A stretch of DNA of 34,384 nt from Spirochaetaceae bacterium. GTDB lineage: Bacteria > Spirochaetota > Spirochaetia > DSM-27196 > SLAA01. A program made the translations under genes and the position numbers. The number at the start of each line of letters is the position of its first letter. The stretch's first letter is position 1. The notes under the pieces are model-generated. The model was not told the origin of the DNA. It searched no databases and worked only from the letters and a program-made list of their open reading frames with translations. The stretch is taken from the NCBI GenBank assembly GCA_003556605.1, contig PWQX01000266.1:1-34384 (forward strand), given 5' to 3'. Shown here piece by piece: positions 26,782 through 32,013 of this stretch.

Positions 26782-26794
26782 GCACGGCCGTGCT
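26781..26794. repeat. 14-bp perfect palindrome after clpX
   Basis: AGCACGG followed by CCGTGCT. It starts on the last base of the clpX stop codon and touches the next gene's -35 box. There is no T-run, so it may be an mRNA 3'-end hairpin or an operator. Confidence 0.45.
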
Positions 26795-26822
26795 TGCATT
26801 TCGAACGGCGAGTGCCTATACT
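26794..26822 (+). promoter_or_regulatory. sigma70-type promoter after clpX
   Basis: TTGCAT (26794-26799), 17 bases and TATACT (26817-26822). Initiation near 26829 leaves a leader of about 27 bases with AGGAGG before GTG 26856. Confidence 0.65.
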
Positions 26823-26855
26823 AGGACACGAGCGGAGTTTTCCAGGAGGATGATC

Positions 26856-27260
26856 GTGAGGAATCCGATAGCCGTCTTTGTCGGCGTATTGGTACTGGTA
26901 CTCGCCGTACACGCAGCCGCTGATGAGCCGCGCCCTTACGTACGAACCGTCCATTTGGAGCGTGTCTACACACACAGCAACGGGTACAAGGTGGTTTATC
27001 GTACCAGCCGACTTGAGACCGCCGAAACGTATATCCCGGCCCGGTGGTTTGGAAGAGCAAGCGGCACAGGGGAGATCATCTATACGAACCACAAGGCCGC
27101 TCCGTACATGCAGGTCTACTACGAGAGCGGGGAGTTCTCGCACGTGCGACTGTTTGTGCGCAGTAATACAACTCATCCATCGTGGGGCTTCCTGCCCAAC
27201 CGCCCCGAAGAGCTGGAACGCTTCATTGCAGTGGGCGATCAGCTCCAGGTCCGCTATTGA
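26856..27260 (+). CDS. small secreted protein, function unknown
   Basis: A 134-residue protein with an N-terminal signal peptide (MRNPIAVFVGVLVLVLAVHAAA, cleavage near the AAADE junction). The mature part of about 110 residues is strand-rich with many Tyr and charged residues (SNGYKVVYRTSRLET, PYMQVYYESGEFSHVRLFV) and ends in LQVRY. There are no cysteines, lipobox or enzyme motif. I choose GTG 26856 because AGGAGG lies at 26844-26849. ATG 26850 would abut that site. It has its own promoter in the clpX-nrnA gap. I do not recognise the family. Confidence 0.72.
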   Translation: MRNPIAVFVGVLVLVLAVHAAADEPRPYVRTVHLERVYTHSNGYKVVYRTSRLETAETYIPARWFGRASGTGEIIYTNHKAAPYMQVYYESGEFSHVRLFVRSNTTHPSWGFLPNRPEELERFIAVGDQLQVRY

Positions 27261-27370
27261 CGCGCGGCTCATAGAGTACGTGCAACAAATAGCTGCAGGG
27301 GCCTCTGTGCGGCGCATTGCAGCGCGTCTCAAGCCGGTGATTGGGGACACAGAGCCCTAAGTGCAAGCAG

Positions 27371-28396
27371 ATGTTGAACCATACCCAGGATGCAGAGGAC
27401 GTACTGCAGTTCCTGTCACAGTATCAGCGCTACTACATCCTCAGCCATATCGAACCCGACGGCGACTGTGTGGCCGCTTCACTCGCGTTAGCCTCGTTCC
27501 TCAAACGGCGCGGCAAACTGGTGACTCTGCTGAACGAGGGACCGTTTGATCGGCCGGAAATTCGGAATTATCAGCCACACTTTGAATCCACCGCGCCCGC
27601 TGCAACCGCACTTCAAGATTCCGACGCCGCCGCGGTAATCCTGGACTGCTCCGACTACGGCCGTCTCGGTGCGCTATCACAGATAGTTGGTCAGTTGCCG
27701 GTGGCGGTCATCGACCACCACTCAACCAACGAAACCAACGCGGCATGCACCCTGCTTGACTCGTCGGCTCCGTCAACCACGGTGCTCATTCAGCTGCTCA
27801 TTGAACACTCCGGCGAGCGCCTCACGCCCACTGAGGCCCGGCATGCGCTGTTCGGTCTGTGCACCGACACCGCGTATTTTCGCCACCTCGACCACGATAG
27901 CGGCGACGCGTTCCGGTTCGCGGCGCGGCTCGTTGACGCCGGCGCCAGCCCGCGCGAAACCCACGACGCTATGTTCGGGGGGCAATCACTCGCCTCGCGC
28001 TATCTGATCGCGCGCTGGCTTGAACGCGCGCGGCCGCTGTGCGAGGGCCGAGCGCTCATCACCTACCACACGCGCGAGGATGGTCGTGAGTTTGCTCCGG
28101 CTGAGTTCGACACTGCGACGCTGTACCAACTGTTACTCGGTGTGCATGGGTGCAGTGTGGTTGCATTCGTTCGAGAGGAAAGCGAAACAAGCTGTACCGG
28201 CAGCCTTCGCTCCATCACCGATCTGGACGTTGCGGCAATCGCGCGGATGTTCGGGGGTGGCGGGCACAAACGGGCAGCCGGTTTCTTCATTGAACGCTCG
28301 TACACCGAAGTTTATGCCCAGCTCACTACGGTGATCGAAGAGCGCCTCGCGGAGTTGCCCCCACCTGTGCCCAACGTCCATCCGGAAACACCTTAA
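27371..28396 (+). CDS. nrnA: DHH-family phosphoesterase (NrnA-like oligoribonuclease/pAp phosphatase)
   Basis: Predicted cytoplasmic metal-dependent phosphoesterase that degrades short RNA oligomers and/or 3'-phosphoadenosine 5'-phosphate. It has about 341 residues, matching NrnA. The DHH domain contains HIEPDGD (26-32), LDCSD (91-95), DHH (115-117) and GLCTDTAYF. The C-terminal DHHA1 domain ends with GGGGHKRAAGF, which binds the substrate. I use ATG 27371 (MLNHTQDAED). An upstream TTG at 27341 would add residues unlike homologues. No good ribosome-binding site is seen. RecJ is excluded by length. The choice between oligonuclease and pAp phosphatase roles cannot be made from sequence. Confidence 0.87.
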   Translation: MLNHTQDAEDVLQFLSQYQRYYILSHIEPDGDCVAASLALASFLKRRGKLVTLLNEGPFDRPEIRNYQPHFESTAPAATALQDSDAAAVILDCSDYGRLGALSQIVGQLPVAVIDHHSTNETNAACTLLDSSAPSTTVLIQLLIEHSGERLTPTEARHALFGLCTDTAYFRHLDHDSGDAFRFAARLVDAGASPRETHDAMFGGQSLASRYLIARWLERARPLCEGRALITYHTREDGREFAPAEFDTATLYQLLLGVHGCSVVAFVREESETSCTGSLRSITDLDVAAIARMFGGGGHKRAAGFFIERSYTEVYAQLTTVIEERLAELPPPVPNVHPETP

Positions 28397-28423: not shown

Positions 28424-28451
28424 TTGCTTTAAATGTAAACGAAAGTAAATT
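28424..28451 (+). promoter_or_regulatory. candidate promoter of the sigma-like gene
   Basis: TTGCTT (28424-28429) and TAAATT (28446-28451), 16 bases apart, in a markedly AT-rich patch. Initiation near 28458 would give an 80-base leader. Confidence 0.45.
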
Positions 28452-28503
28452 CCCGCACCGCTACGCCTCGGTTTCTTGGCACATGGATTGCACTATGGCC
28501 TTC

Positions 28504-28517
28504 CCCGTCGAAACGGG
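28504..28517 (+). other. CGAA-tetraloop hairpin ahead of the sigma-like gene
   Basis: CCCGT and ACGGG enclose a CGAA loop, ending 10 bases before the ribosome-binding site AAGGAGG. It could influence translation. Confidence 0.4.
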
Positions 28518-28537
28518 ATCGTACAAGGAGGCAACCT

Positions 28538-29470
28538 ATGGACCAATTGACCGGCAGAGTCTTAGCGTATCAGCAGACCGGAAGCGGCGAACCGCAGCTT
28601 TTCGCCGAAATCATGAGACGTGTTTACGCGTATCCTGCTCGCTGTTTCGGCCTTCGAGAGGACGACTGCGGGGAGTTTCTCTTGTACTTCTACCCGCGCA
28701 TTGAGCTCACCCTGCAACGCTTCGAACACCGCGGGAAGCCGTTTGCTGCGTATCTATACGCAACGCTCAAGTATCAACTTCGTTCGTACGTCGCAGTACG
28801 AAACCGCGAAAGTATCCGCCGCGCGACCGCCGACTCGCCGGTTATCTGCAACACGGTGTTTGACGTTGCAACACTCGCTGAACGGCCGCCGGGCTACACA
28901 GCGCTCACCCCCCGTGCTCCGAGTCTGCAAGCCGAGATCGACGCGGTCGTTGCAGTACTGACTGCGGTTCCTCGCAGCCGTTCCGGGAGCGGAGCAAATG
29001 CGCGGCGCATCGTAATCCTCGCCATGAAGTGCTGCCTCAAGCTGAACGACGCCGACATCCGCGAGCTCGCGGGATTGACCGGCTATAACCACGACGAGCT
29101 CCAAAACCAATGGATCGCGCTGCGCGAACGCATGCAACTCCGCTTGTCGCGAATCGCAGTACTGCAAGAACGGCGCTCCGCCGCATTCTTTTCTATGCAA
29201 TACCTGCGTATGCGGCTGCGGAAAGCTTCAAACCCAAAGTCCGTCGACCGGCTAGAGAAGACCCTCGCAATTCACCGCAACCGCTACGAACGAGCGCAAA
29301 GGCGGCTGGAACAAGTGCCGCTGACCCCCTCGAATGGCGAAATAGCGACTGCTCTCGGCATTCCGAAAGGCTCGGTTGACTCAACCATGCATTACTTGCG
29401 GCGCGTGTTCGCGCACGAAACCCGCGCCGGCGGGGCCGAGGTTGCGACGGGCGCACGCGCGCGGGGGTGA
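28538..29470 (+). CDS. divergent sigma-factor-like regulatory protein (candidate)
   Basis: A 310-residue basic protein without signal peptide or membrane segment. Residues about 15-85 resemble a sigma70 region 2: FAEIMRRVYAYPARCFG, then EDDCGEFLLYFYPRIELTL, then FEHRGKPFAAYLYATLKYQLRSY, the order of helices expected there. Residues about 264-290 look like a region 4 helix-turn-helix: SNGEIATALGIPKGSVDSTMHYLRR. The middle (130-260) is helical and poorly recognised. It may direct RNA polymerase or be a regulator derived from a sigma factor; I am not sure. The ATG has a strong AAGGAGG and an AT-rich promoter patch upstream. No anti-sigma gene is adjacent. The downstream ITPase gene follows after 36 bases, probably from its own promoter. 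Confidence 0.6.
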   Translation: MDQLTGRVLAYQQTGSGEPQLFAEIMRRVYAYPARCFGLREDDCGEFLLYFYPRIELTLQRFEHRGKPFAAYLYATLKYQLRSYVAVRNRESIRRATADSPVICNTVFDVATLAERPPGYTALTPRAPSLQAEIDAVVAVLTAVPRSRSGSGANARRIVILAMKCCLKLNDADIRELAGLTGYNHDELQNQWIALRERMQLRLSRIAVLQERRSAAFFSMQYLRMRLRKASNPKSVDRLEKTLAIHRNRYERAQRRLEQVPLTPSNGEIATALGIPKGSVDSTMHYLRRVFAHETRAGGAEVATGARARG

Positions 29471-29499
29471 TTTACAGAATTGGTGCCAACGCGTATGAT
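29471..29499 (+). promoter_or_regulatory. candidate promoter of the ITPase gene (leaderless)
   Basis: TTTACA (29471-29476), 17 bases and TATGAT (29494-29499). Initiation seven bases beyond would fall at ATG 29507. Confidence 0.5.
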
Positions 29500-29506
29500 G
29501 GCGCGC

Positions 29507-30118
29507 ATGCGTTTGCTGCTTGCATCCGCGAACCACCACAAAAGACGCGAGCTGTCTGAGATCATGAGCCGCCACCGCTTGAGTACGCCCGACGATTACG
29601 AGGTGGTATTCGAGTACGAAGAGACTGCAGAAACATTCATGGGCAACGCGCTCGGGAAGGCACAAGCGCTGCATGGTCTCATTGAGCAACGACACGGTGA
29701 TCACAACCTCGTTGTAATCGCCGACGACTCGGGGATCTGCGTTGATGCGCTTGACGGCGGGCCGGGCGTCCGCTCGGCGCGCTTTGGAAGCGCGCCGGGG
29801 CAACCGGAGCTCGACGACGAAGGGCGTAATCAACTGCTGCTCGAGAAGCTAAGAGGGGTTGAAAACCGCAGCGCGCGTTATGTGTGTTGCATGGTCGCGT
29901 ATCTGGGTATAGACCGCTACTTCATGGTGCAGGAAACCTGGCATGGGGTGATCGCCGAGCGCGCCTCTGACGGCACCGGTGGTTTTGGATACGATCCGGT
30001 GTTCTACCTTCCCGACCTCGGTGTGACGGTAGCCGAAATCTCGGCCGAAGAAAAGCATCACCGCTCGCACCGGGGCACCGCCGCGCGCCGGCTTGCCGCT
30101 GTTCTCAATACCCTCTAG
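29507..30118 (+). CDS. rdgB: non-canonical purine NTP pyrophosphatase (ITPase, RdgB/HAM1)
   Basis: Hydrolyses ITP, dITP and XTP to keep deaminated purines out of DNA and RNA. It has 203 residues from ATG 29507. Family blocks: LLLASANHHKRREL at the N-terminus (replacing the common TxNxxK), ADDSGICVDALDGGPGVRSAR, the central FDPVF-type block GGFGYDPVFYLPD and the C-terminal HRGTAARRL. In-frame ATGs at 29495 and 29498 overlap the predicted -10 box. I choose 29507 because homologues start with the MRLLLAS strand and the transcript would start there. No Shine-Dalgarno precedes it. The pepF gene follows after 62 bases from its own promoter. Confidence 0.92.
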   Translation: MRLLLASANHHKRRELSEIMSRHRLSTPDDYEVVFEYEETAETFMGNALGKAQALHGLIEQRHGDHNLVVIADDSGICVDALDGGPGVRSARFGSAPGQPELDDEGRNQLLLEKLRGVENRSARYVCCMVAYLGIDRYFMVQETWHGVIAERASDGTGGFGYDPVFYLPDLGVTVAEISAEEKHHRSHRGTAARRLAAVLNTL

Positions 30119-30180: not shown

Positions 30181-32013
30181 ATGAGCCGGAATACAACTCA
30201 TGTACCGAGTCGCGACGAAGTCCCAGCTGAGTCTCGTTGGGACCTGTCGAGCCTCTATGACAGCGATGCCGCTTGGAAAGAGGACCTCAAGCGCTATATA
30301 CAGCTAACGCCGGAAATAGACCGCTTCAAAGGGACGCTTGGCGAGTCGGCGCAGAAGCTTCGCGAGTGCCTGGAGTTCATGAACCGAATGAACATGCTCC
30401 AAGAACGACTGGGATACTACGCCCACCTGCGCCTGGCTGAAGATGTATCCGACAGCCGCAACCATGACCGGTTCTCGCGCTTCATGCAGGCCGCAACCGC
30501 AGCCGAAGCCCGCGCGAGCTACCAGACGCCGGAAATCCAGGCGATCCCGGATGAGCGGATGCAGGAGTTTCTCCGCGACCCGGGCCTTGCGGAGTTCGAG
30601 GTTGTGCTGCGTAAGATATTGCGTTACAAACCGCACGTGCTGTCCGAATCGGAGGAGCGACTGCTCGCTTTGCAGCAAGAACCCAATCAGACTGCGCAGA
30701 AGAGCTTCGGCGCACTTACCGATGCCGACATGGACTTCGGCGATGTTGACACCCCCGAAGGGCCCAAACCGCTCACCCACTCGTCGTTCGGCAGCTTCAT
30801 GGAACACCCCGACCGCGAGGTGCGCGACCGCGCCTACGAGCAGTTTTTCTCGGAGTTTGTCGCCCACAAGAACACGCTCGCCAATCTCTACGCCGGGAGT
30901 GTACAGCTGGATATTTATCAGGCGAAGGTGCGTAACTTCCTTTCGGCTCGCGCCGCCCGGCTCTTTCCCGACGATGTTCCGGAGTCGGTGTACGACAACC
31001 TCGTCGAAACTGTCGCCTCCGGCTTACCGGAGCTGCACCGCTATTACGATCTACGCCGCCGTGCTCTTGGGCTCAGCCGGCTCGAGCTCCACGACACAAG
31101 AGTTCCCCTCGTCCCCGAGCTCACCGTTCATCACACTTACGAACAGGCCGTTGATGTGGTGATCACGGCCTTGGCTCCATTGGGCGAGGAGTACTGCCGC
31201 GTCCTCAAAGAAGGTTTACTCGATGGTTGGGTTGACCGCTACGAAAACAAAGGAAAACGCTCGGGAGCCTTCTCGGCCGGTTCGTACGAGGGCTGGCCGT
31301 ACATTCTGATGAACTTCAGAGATGATCTGTTGCGTGACGTGTTCACCTTGGCACACGAGGCCGGCCACTCGATGCACTCGTGGTACTCCACCCGCAACAA
31401 CCCGTTTCAGCATTACGACTACACGATTTTCGAGGCCGAAGTCGCCTCAACATTCAACGAGCAGCTTCTTGCGAAGCACCTCATGGAGCAGTCCGAAGAT
31501 CCGAGCATGCAGGCGTACCTGGTAAACAAGCAGATAGACGACCTTGTAGGCACGCTCTTTCGTCAGACAATGTTTGCCGAGTATGAGCACATCACCCACA
31601 ACAGTGTGGAAAGCGGGCACCCCCTCACCGTCGACCTGCTTCGGGCCGAGTACCATAAGCTGCTCGAGAAGTATTTCGGCTCCGACGTTCACCTCCACGA
31701 GCTTGCTGATATCGAAGGCTTACGAATCCCGCACTTCTACCGCGCGTTCTACGTCTATAAGTACGCAACCGGCGTCTCCGCCGCAGTAACACTCGCTCGT
31801 CAGGTTGTACACGGGAATACTGTTGAGCGCGATCGCTACCTGAATTTCTTGAAGTCCGGCGGGTCGCGCTTCCCGATCGAGTCTCTGCAACTCGCCGGCG
31901 TCGACATGACCGAAAGAACCCCCGTCGAGGTTGCGATAGAGAAGTTCTCCTCATTAGTGAATCGATTGGAGACGCTCTTGCTCGAGCTCGGCCGAATCTC
32001 CAGCACCGACTAA
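30181..32013 (+). CDS. pepF: oligoendopeptidase F
   Basis: Cytoplasmic zinc metallopeptidase of family M3 that cuts oligopeptides. It has 610 residues, the normal length. The zinc site is HEAGH at 392-396 with Glu393 catalytic; the third ligand is Glu420 in FEAEVAST. N-terminal (SRWDLSSLYDSDAAWKED) and C-terminal (DLHELADIEGLRIPHFYRAFYVYKYATG-like) blocks are characteristic of PepF. The ATG coincides with the predicted transcription start of a TTGACT/TATCGT promoter and lacks a ribosome-binding site. It converges with the secreted-protein gene on the minus strand, 39 bases away. Confidence 0.94.
   Translation: MSRNTTHVPSRDEVPAESRWDLSSLYDSDAAWKEDLKRYIQLTPEIDRFKGTLGESAQKLRECLEFMNRMNMLQERLGYYAHLRLAEDVSDSRNHDRFSRFMQAATAAEARASYQTPEIQAIPDERMQEFLRDPGLAEFEVVLRKILRYKPHVLSESEERLLALQQEPNQTAQKSFGALTDADMDFGDVDTPEGPKPLTHSSFGSFMEHPDREVRDRAYEQFFSEFVAHKNTLANLYAGSVQLDIYQAKVRNFLSARAARLFPDDVPESVYDNLVETVASGLPELHRYYDLRRRALGLSRLELHDTRVPLVPELTVHHTYEQAVDVVITALAPLGEEYCRVLKEGLLDGWVDRYENKGKRSGAFSAGSYEGWPYILMNFRDDLLRDVFTLAHEAGHSMHSWYSTRNNPFQHYDYTIFEAEVASTFNEQLLAKHLMEQSEDPSMQAYLVNKQIDDLVGTLFRQTMFAEYEHITHNSVESGHPLTVDLLRAEYHKLLEKYFGSDVHLHELADIEGLRIPHFYRAFYVYKYATGVSAAVTLARQVVHGNTVERDRYLNFLKSGGSRFPIESLQLAGVDMTERTPVEVAIEKFSSLVNRLETLLLELGRISSTD

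Follow-up and report, generated by a model that had tools for sequence, protein, structure and literature searches.

A divergent, ECF-derived σ70-family protein of the Spirochaetota, whose gene carries a predicted σ54 promoter in class Spirochaetia

Sigma factors are proteins that direct RNA polymerase to the genes it transcribes. The window considered here, a stretch of 34,384 nucleotides from a Spirochaetaceae bacterium, contains an open reading frame of 310 codons that an initial annotation, made from the sequence by itself, had proposed as a divergent member of this group. The reading frame is real and conserved. The genes and features around and within it, all drawn from computational evidence, are the following.

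27341-28396, forward strand: DHH/DHHA1 phosphoesterase gene, the upstream neighbor (Pfam PF01368/PF02272; 43 of 70 loci)
28434-28449, forward strand: conserved tandem element resembling an activator site, TGTAAACGAAAGTAAA (consensus TGTAAA-N4-TGTAAA), in phase with the promoter
28476-28492, forward strand: predicted σ54 -24/-12 promoter TTGGCACATGGATTGCA, an exact match to YTGGCAYN5TTGCW, 45 nt before the ATG
28503-28517, forward strand: CCCCGTCGAAACGGG, a short stem-loop close to where a σ54 transcript is expected to begin
28525-28531, forward strand: Shine-Dalgarno sequence AAGGAGG, upstream of the sigma gene
28538-29470, forward strand: gene for the divergent, ECF-derived σ70-family sigma factor (310 aa, ATG start)
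28538-28837, forward strand: sigma region 2, residues 1-100, four helices (hhalign E = 2.4e-6; AlphaFold)
28985-29137, forward strand: degenerate region-4-like domain in the middle, residues 150-200 (hhalign)
29090-29314, forward strand: predicted long helical hairpin, residues 185-229 and 233-259, linking the two region-4-like units (AlphaFold)
29315-29443, forward strand: C-terminal region-4-like helix-turn-helix (HTH), residues 260-302 (hhalign E = 4.3e-10 versus ECF region 4)
29480-30118, forward strand: Ham1/RdgB-type nucleoside triphosphatase gene, the downstream neighbor (Pfam PF01725; 49 of 70 loci)
30181-32013, forward strand: M3 peptidase gene, oligopeptidase F-type (Pfam PF01432/PF08439; a neighbor in 36 of 70 loci)

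The sigma gene is present once in the 3.88-Mb genome from which the window derives, and a single copy is usual in the family. The closest named records, at 62-64% identity, are from metagenome-assembled genomes of Spirochaetales/Spirochaetaceae. Searching with the single sequence, we found members of the family in 198 of the 297 genomes of class Spirochaetia; a profile built from the 70 class members closest to the window protein (alignment A1) gave matches in 145 of the 198 genomes of Spirochaetota. That phylum-wide profile search gave no match in family f27, a group of genomes of ~1-1.8 Mb that we take from their size to be Borrelia-like, or in a 1.1-Mb Treponema-like genome. Beyond the phylum, phage and plasmid records, which gave no match, and a pattern-limited genome scan were covered. 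One Bacteroidota candidate from that scan was rejected, being an M23-peptidase-like frame that contains the common words FEHRGKPF. The suggestion that the protein is perhaps phylum-specific fits these data, with most of the Spirochaetota matched. Start codons of the orthologues were picked by alignment. In a tree of 111 members, class Spirochaetia and the other classes fall on either side of a single branch (SH-aLRT 99%).

As a single sequence, the protein scores 27 bits against NCBIfam TIGR02937 (E = 2.9e-6), under the curated cut-off of 42.9 bits, and Pfam Sigma70_r3 matches its C-terminal HTH at E = 6e-6. Across the 70 family members, TIGR02937 matches 53, Sigma70_r4_2 (Pfam) 15, and the SigI model just 1. 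Comparison of profiles is more telling. With hhalign, and with typical ECF sigmas of spirochaetes (alignment A3) as the reference, region 2 gave E = 2.4e-6 for the class family and 2.5e-6 for the orthologues, and the C-terminal HTH matched ECF region 4 at E = 4.3e-10 in this class and 3.1e-12 in the others; reversed-profile controls gave E values of at least 0.09. The orthologues of other classes (A4) align with A1 over their full length (E = 4e-31) and with the ECF alignment at E = 1.1e-11. The alignment of A1 with RpoD-group sigmas alone was not significant. A search of PDB sequences returned only weak ECF region-4 matches, besides matches of VPS4 and the proteasome to the hairpin, which we put down to coiled-coil noise. 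By these profiles the gene product is a σ70-family protein of ECF ancestry, having both the region 2 homologous to σ2 and the region 4 HTH that are characteristic of the superfamily. The likeness of its two ends to sigma regions 2 and 4, which the initial annotation had noted, is real, weak for the single sequence and solid at the level of the family.

The region 2 consensus in the family reads VY-YP...EDDcgdFlLfFyPRI...RF-yqG-PFEaYL...LkWQlksyl, and in the AlphaFold model of the window protein (mean pLDDT 88) its helices span residues 3-14, 18-37, 41-61, and 69-98. Orthologues of other classes keep the consensus W-F-xx-VLRN, the canonical motif of ECF region 2.3/2.4. Class Spirochaetia mostly has Y at W72 and W at N79, the latter being the asparagine of the ECF "RN," and recognition of the -10 element could be altered as a result. 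The C-terminal HTH has the consensus PtnrdIAeVLGIPKGTVDSgLyYLKk, in which the GIPKGTVDS columns are 50-97% conserved in the class. Together with the σ2 core (EDDcgdFlLfFyPRI...PFEaYL), it is among the best-conserved stretches of the protein.

Between these two ends, the initial annotation had remarked on an unusual 180-residue middle. Unusual it is, and its content can now be described as a second, degenerate region-4-like domain followed by a long helical hairpin. In orthologues the domain matches ECF region 4 at E = 1.4e-6 and RpoD-group region 4 at 4.9e-7; in class Spirochaetia it has drifted, with E = 3.3e-4 against region 4. An assignment to region 3 was rejected, as the orthologue middle gave E = 0.014 against region 3 compared with 4.9e-7 against region 4; the Pfam r3 match falls on the C-terminal HTH, outside this domain. 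The model of the window protein has a three-helix domain here and a helical hairpin of 45+27 residues, predicted at a pLDDT of about 94-98. The same hairpin is predicted in the orthologue L172, and an orthologue model (pLDDT 88) has the same set of helices as the window protein. As modeled, the 180-residue middle is thus ordered and no mere filler. Profile matches and models together point to the layout σ2 - σ4-like - hairpin - σ4-like.

Structural searches differed in yield between the two models. For the window model, the best Foldseek match was SigB at a non-significant E = 0.54. For the orthologue model, the top PDB matches were nearly all sigma factors (σE first, with AlgU, SigW, and SigH), the best E being 3.7e-3 and none lying under 1e-3; that list also includes a few crosslinking-derived models of RNA polymerase, and SigI6 is among the weak matches. 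Region 2 of the orthologue superimposes on that of SigC over 86 columns at 2.0-2.2 Å (TMt 0.78-0.79). The profile-profile check against sigma regions gave significant matches, and neither a want of similarity to sigma regions nor a fold inconsistent with binding to core polymerase was found. The proposal of a divergent sigma factor is borne out by the ECF region 2 and 4 matches, by the orthologue Foldseek results, and by the anti-sigma-like partner found in sister classes.

The common gene order in class Spirochaetia is DHH phosphoesterase - sigma - rdgB-type - pepF, and the M3 peptidase gene is probably in the same operon as the sigma gene. Positions 26790-27260 encode a protein of 156 aa that matches no Pfam model and is kept near the DHH gene in ~22 class loci. 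In family f19 (L037, L044, L048, and L051), the sigma gene lies between an FtsK-like gene and flagellar genes that look like fliO/fliP. No anti-sigma gene adjoins the sigma gene in the window, as first noted, or in the class, its neighbors in the window being those for the DHH phosphoesterase upstream and the Ham1/RdgB-type protein downstream. What the window by itself could not reveal is that, in other classes, an anti-sigma-like gene is found alongside and that this class has a predicted σ54 promoter instead.

In other classes of Spirochaetota, the sigma orthologue is usually followed by a gene for a soluble, zinc-finger, anti-sigma-like protein, often overlapping or no more than 60 nt away. 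The encoded proteins are 160-290 aa long and lack any strongly hydrophobic segment of the transmembrane kind. The motif H-x2-4-C-x2-C occurs in 21 of 42 of these downstream proteins compared with 4 of 241 other ORFs in the same size range; Pfam zf-HC2 matches 12 of 39. Some outgroup families (L176, L178, L179, L196, L208, L225, and others) have an anti-sigma-like protein without the zinc motif; these proteins keep a C-terminal segment with an ending like G-x-Y-x-(I/V/L)-x-F. A profile of the anti-sigma-like protein found full-length matches in seven of eight outgroup genomes and in none of 21 Spirochaetia genomes, where there were only short, zinc-finger-sized matches. On this sequence evidence the anti-sigma-like gene is lost in class Spirochaetia, and the rdgB-type gene fills its slot in 49 of 70 loci.

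These observations bear on what the protein does. One reading is that a former sigma factor has become a regulator of another kind, docking on RNA polymerase or DNA via σ2 and the HTH without opening promoters, for example as a sigma antagonist or as an HTH activator bearing a coiled-coil arm. Within the class, the drift of the region 2 signature (W72 to Y and N79 to W), the degeneration of the middle domain (E = 3e-4, compared with 1e-6 in other classes), and the disappearance of the anti-sigma-like partner would all suit such a change. However, few stretches are as well kept as the whole σ2 core and the C-terminal HTH, and sister-class orthologues retain both the canonical W-F-xx-VLRN and the partner gene, so we regard this reading as improbable. 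A second possibility, which we hold to be doubtful but worth entertaining, is that the protein is an ECF sigma extended at its C terminus by a regulatory part, in the manner of ECF41, ECF42, and ECF238. The working σ4 would then be the middle domain, and the hairpin and HTH would be a fused sensor or inhibitor replacing the anti-sigma. Replacement of an anti-sigma by a fused extension has precedent (PMC8999054), and the orthologue middle domain does match the whole of region 4. Set against this, orthologues in which the anti-sigma-like gene persists already carry the extension, and the C-terminal HTH is both the better match to region 4 and the more conserved of the two in the class. A working sigma factor with its main σ4 function at the C terminus is the reading that we prefer.

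Upstream of the sigma gene, the -24/-12 element conforms exactly to the TGGCAY-N5-TTGCW near a start codon that typifies a σ54-dependent gene, and it is conserved. When the pattern YTGGCAYN5TTGCW was scored within 300 bp upstream of the sigma genes, it was exact in 31 of 69 class members and present with one mismatch or fewer in 48 of 69; the looser pattern occurred in 0.1% of shuffles, 0 of 70 reverse complements, and 0 of 58 outgroup genes. A further profile-drawn set that includes treponemes has the promoter in most cases. Family f19 and L050 have a sigma gene lacking it. In treponemes of genus g39, L123, L126, and L128 have lost the -24 GG (TTTGCACTCTTTTTGCT), and their close relative L124 keeps it (TTGGCACCCTTTTTGCT), in what is apparently a recent decay of the promoter. 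The gene for σ54 itself is present in 146 of 148 class genomes, including that of the window, which also encodes 11 strong σ54-activator genes. Judged by motif and conservation, the sigma gene carries a σ54 promoter in class Spirochaetia. The element could conceivably serve the downstream rdgB and pepF genes, next on the same strand in 49 and 36 of 70 loci, with the sigma gene a passenger of a housekeeping operon. This we consider very improbable: the promoter directly precedes the ATG of the sigma gene, and it stays with that gene in loci without a downstream rdgB (e.g. L045 and L042).

The tandem site lies upstream of the σ54 promoter. The pattern TGTAAAN5GTAAA has one exact match in the whole 3.88-Mb genome, which is this site, and with one mismatch or fewer the site is found in 36 of 69 class members compared with 0.23% of Markov-shuffled sequences. 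The gap to the promoter is mostly 25-27, 35-37, or 45-48 bp, in clusters ~10 bp apart, and families f1 and f42 each hold two of them. In a random-gap simulation taking one value per family and cluster, by which relatedness is partly removed, the observed phasing was never reached in 20,000 draws. Such spacing suggests that the site is helically phased with the promoter, as for an activator held to one face of the helix. The site was also considered as the -35 element of the sigma factor itself and rejected, as no conserved -10 lies at a fixed distance and the genome has only one exact site. In a sister genus (L008, L010, and L011), the tandem site recurs in inverted form (TTTACnTTnGTTTACA-like) further upstream of the sigma gene. 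A stem similar to that of the window but different in sequence is found at the same place in L005-L007.

Two other sigma genes of the same genome have comparable upstream elements. L077 (G000:C257, ORF 1324-2205) is an RpoD-like sigma gene of group 2. Its predicted σ54 promoter ends 22 nt before the ATG and is kept in all four genus members examined (L077, L103, L105, and L106), the sister genus having aGGCACN5TTGCA; by sequence it is a second σ54-to-sigma link. L076 (G000:C164, ORF 1351-2193), also of group 2, has TTGGCA[CT]N5TTGC ~38 nt upstream, a promoter type present in five of five genomes examined (L076, L092, L097, L098, and L099). With these, three σ70-family genes may depend on σ54 in this genome.

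We think it quite likely that the window gene encodes an alternative, ECF-derived sigma factor for which, in class Spirochaetia, a σ54-to-sigma cascade took the place of anti-sigma control. In such a scheme, binding to the clamp of core polymerase and to the -10 element would fall to σ2, and reading of a conserved -35-like element to the C-terminal HTH, which is strongly conserved. In most classes other than Spirochaetia, the soluble anti-sigma encoded just downstream would hold the orthologue, as synteny and the zinc-finger motif suggest, and release would set its activity. In class Spirochaetia, the anti-sigma gene would have been lost and the sigma gene would have come under σ54 control. 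Synthesis of the sigma factor would require σ54-RNA polymerase to initiate at the -24/-12 promoter with the help of an activator bound to the tandem TGTAAA site, and abundance, instead of sequestration, would set activity.

Known systems offer partial parallels. Like ECF (group 4) sigmas paired with soluble ZAS anti-sigmas, the family has σ2 and σ4-type domains, no region 3 between them, and, in sister classes, a zinc-finger anti-sigma-like gene alongside. Unlike them, it is not limited to σ2 and σ4 in about 200 aa but runs to ~300 aa (310 aa and four modules in the window) with an extra hairpin and a second HTH, and in class Spirochaetia it has a predicted σ54 promoter and no anti-sigma-like gene. 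On sequence grounds the family belongs by descent among the ECFs and lies outside their two-domain definition. ECF41, ECF42, ECF56, and ECF238 likewise join a C-terminal part to an ECF core, but theirs is SnoaL, TPR, or Cys-rich, extensions for which the 70 members gave no Pfam match, whereas here it is a hairpin and a region-4-type HTH. SigI of Clostridium and Bacillus also combines σ2 with an atypical C-terminal DNA-binding part; its partner gene and promoter differ, and the SigI model matches a single member in 70. In Leptospira interrogans, LIC_10225 (WP_001054050) is an unclassified ECF of 301 aa with its sigma region at residues 21-194 (PMC12655853), for which a transposon mutant exists (PMC5100919). 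By its published description it resembles the family in size and in a layout with a long C-terminal part, and it may be a named member. To call the protein undescribed may therefore be too strong, although neither the family nor its double region-4 layout nor its σ54 promoter is described in the literature searched.

The closest regulatory parallel is the RpoN-RpoS pathway of Borrelia burgdorferi (BosR/Rrp2), in which rpoS has a σ54 promoter with direct repeats nearby (PMC3037356). Both cases join an alternative sigma gene, a σ54 promoter, and a direct-repeat element, and to that extent the cascade proposed for class Spirochaetia would be analogous. They differ in that RpoS is an RpoD-like sigma and the Borrelia repeat is TAAATTAAAT as opposed to TGTAAA-N4-TGTAAA. 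A broader proposal, which we consider about evenly balanced, is that the family is a phylum-wide σ70 subgroup with two region-4-like HTHs and a hairpin, that an ancestor of the Spirochaetia swapped its anti-sigma for a phased-site σ54-to-sigma cascade, and that Borrelia RpoN-RpoS is one variant of a class-wide habit of placing alternative sigma genes under σ54.

Beyond Borrelia and Leptospira, little is known of the global regulators of spirochaetes, which are difficult organisms to study. The family adds a conserved candidate sigma factor of most of the Spirochaetota, one barely seen by curated models, and σ54 together with the tandem site would give it a candidate trigger. It may also represent a single sigma lineage in which post-translational control by an anti-sigma was exchanged, in the course of evolution, for transcriptional control by σ54.
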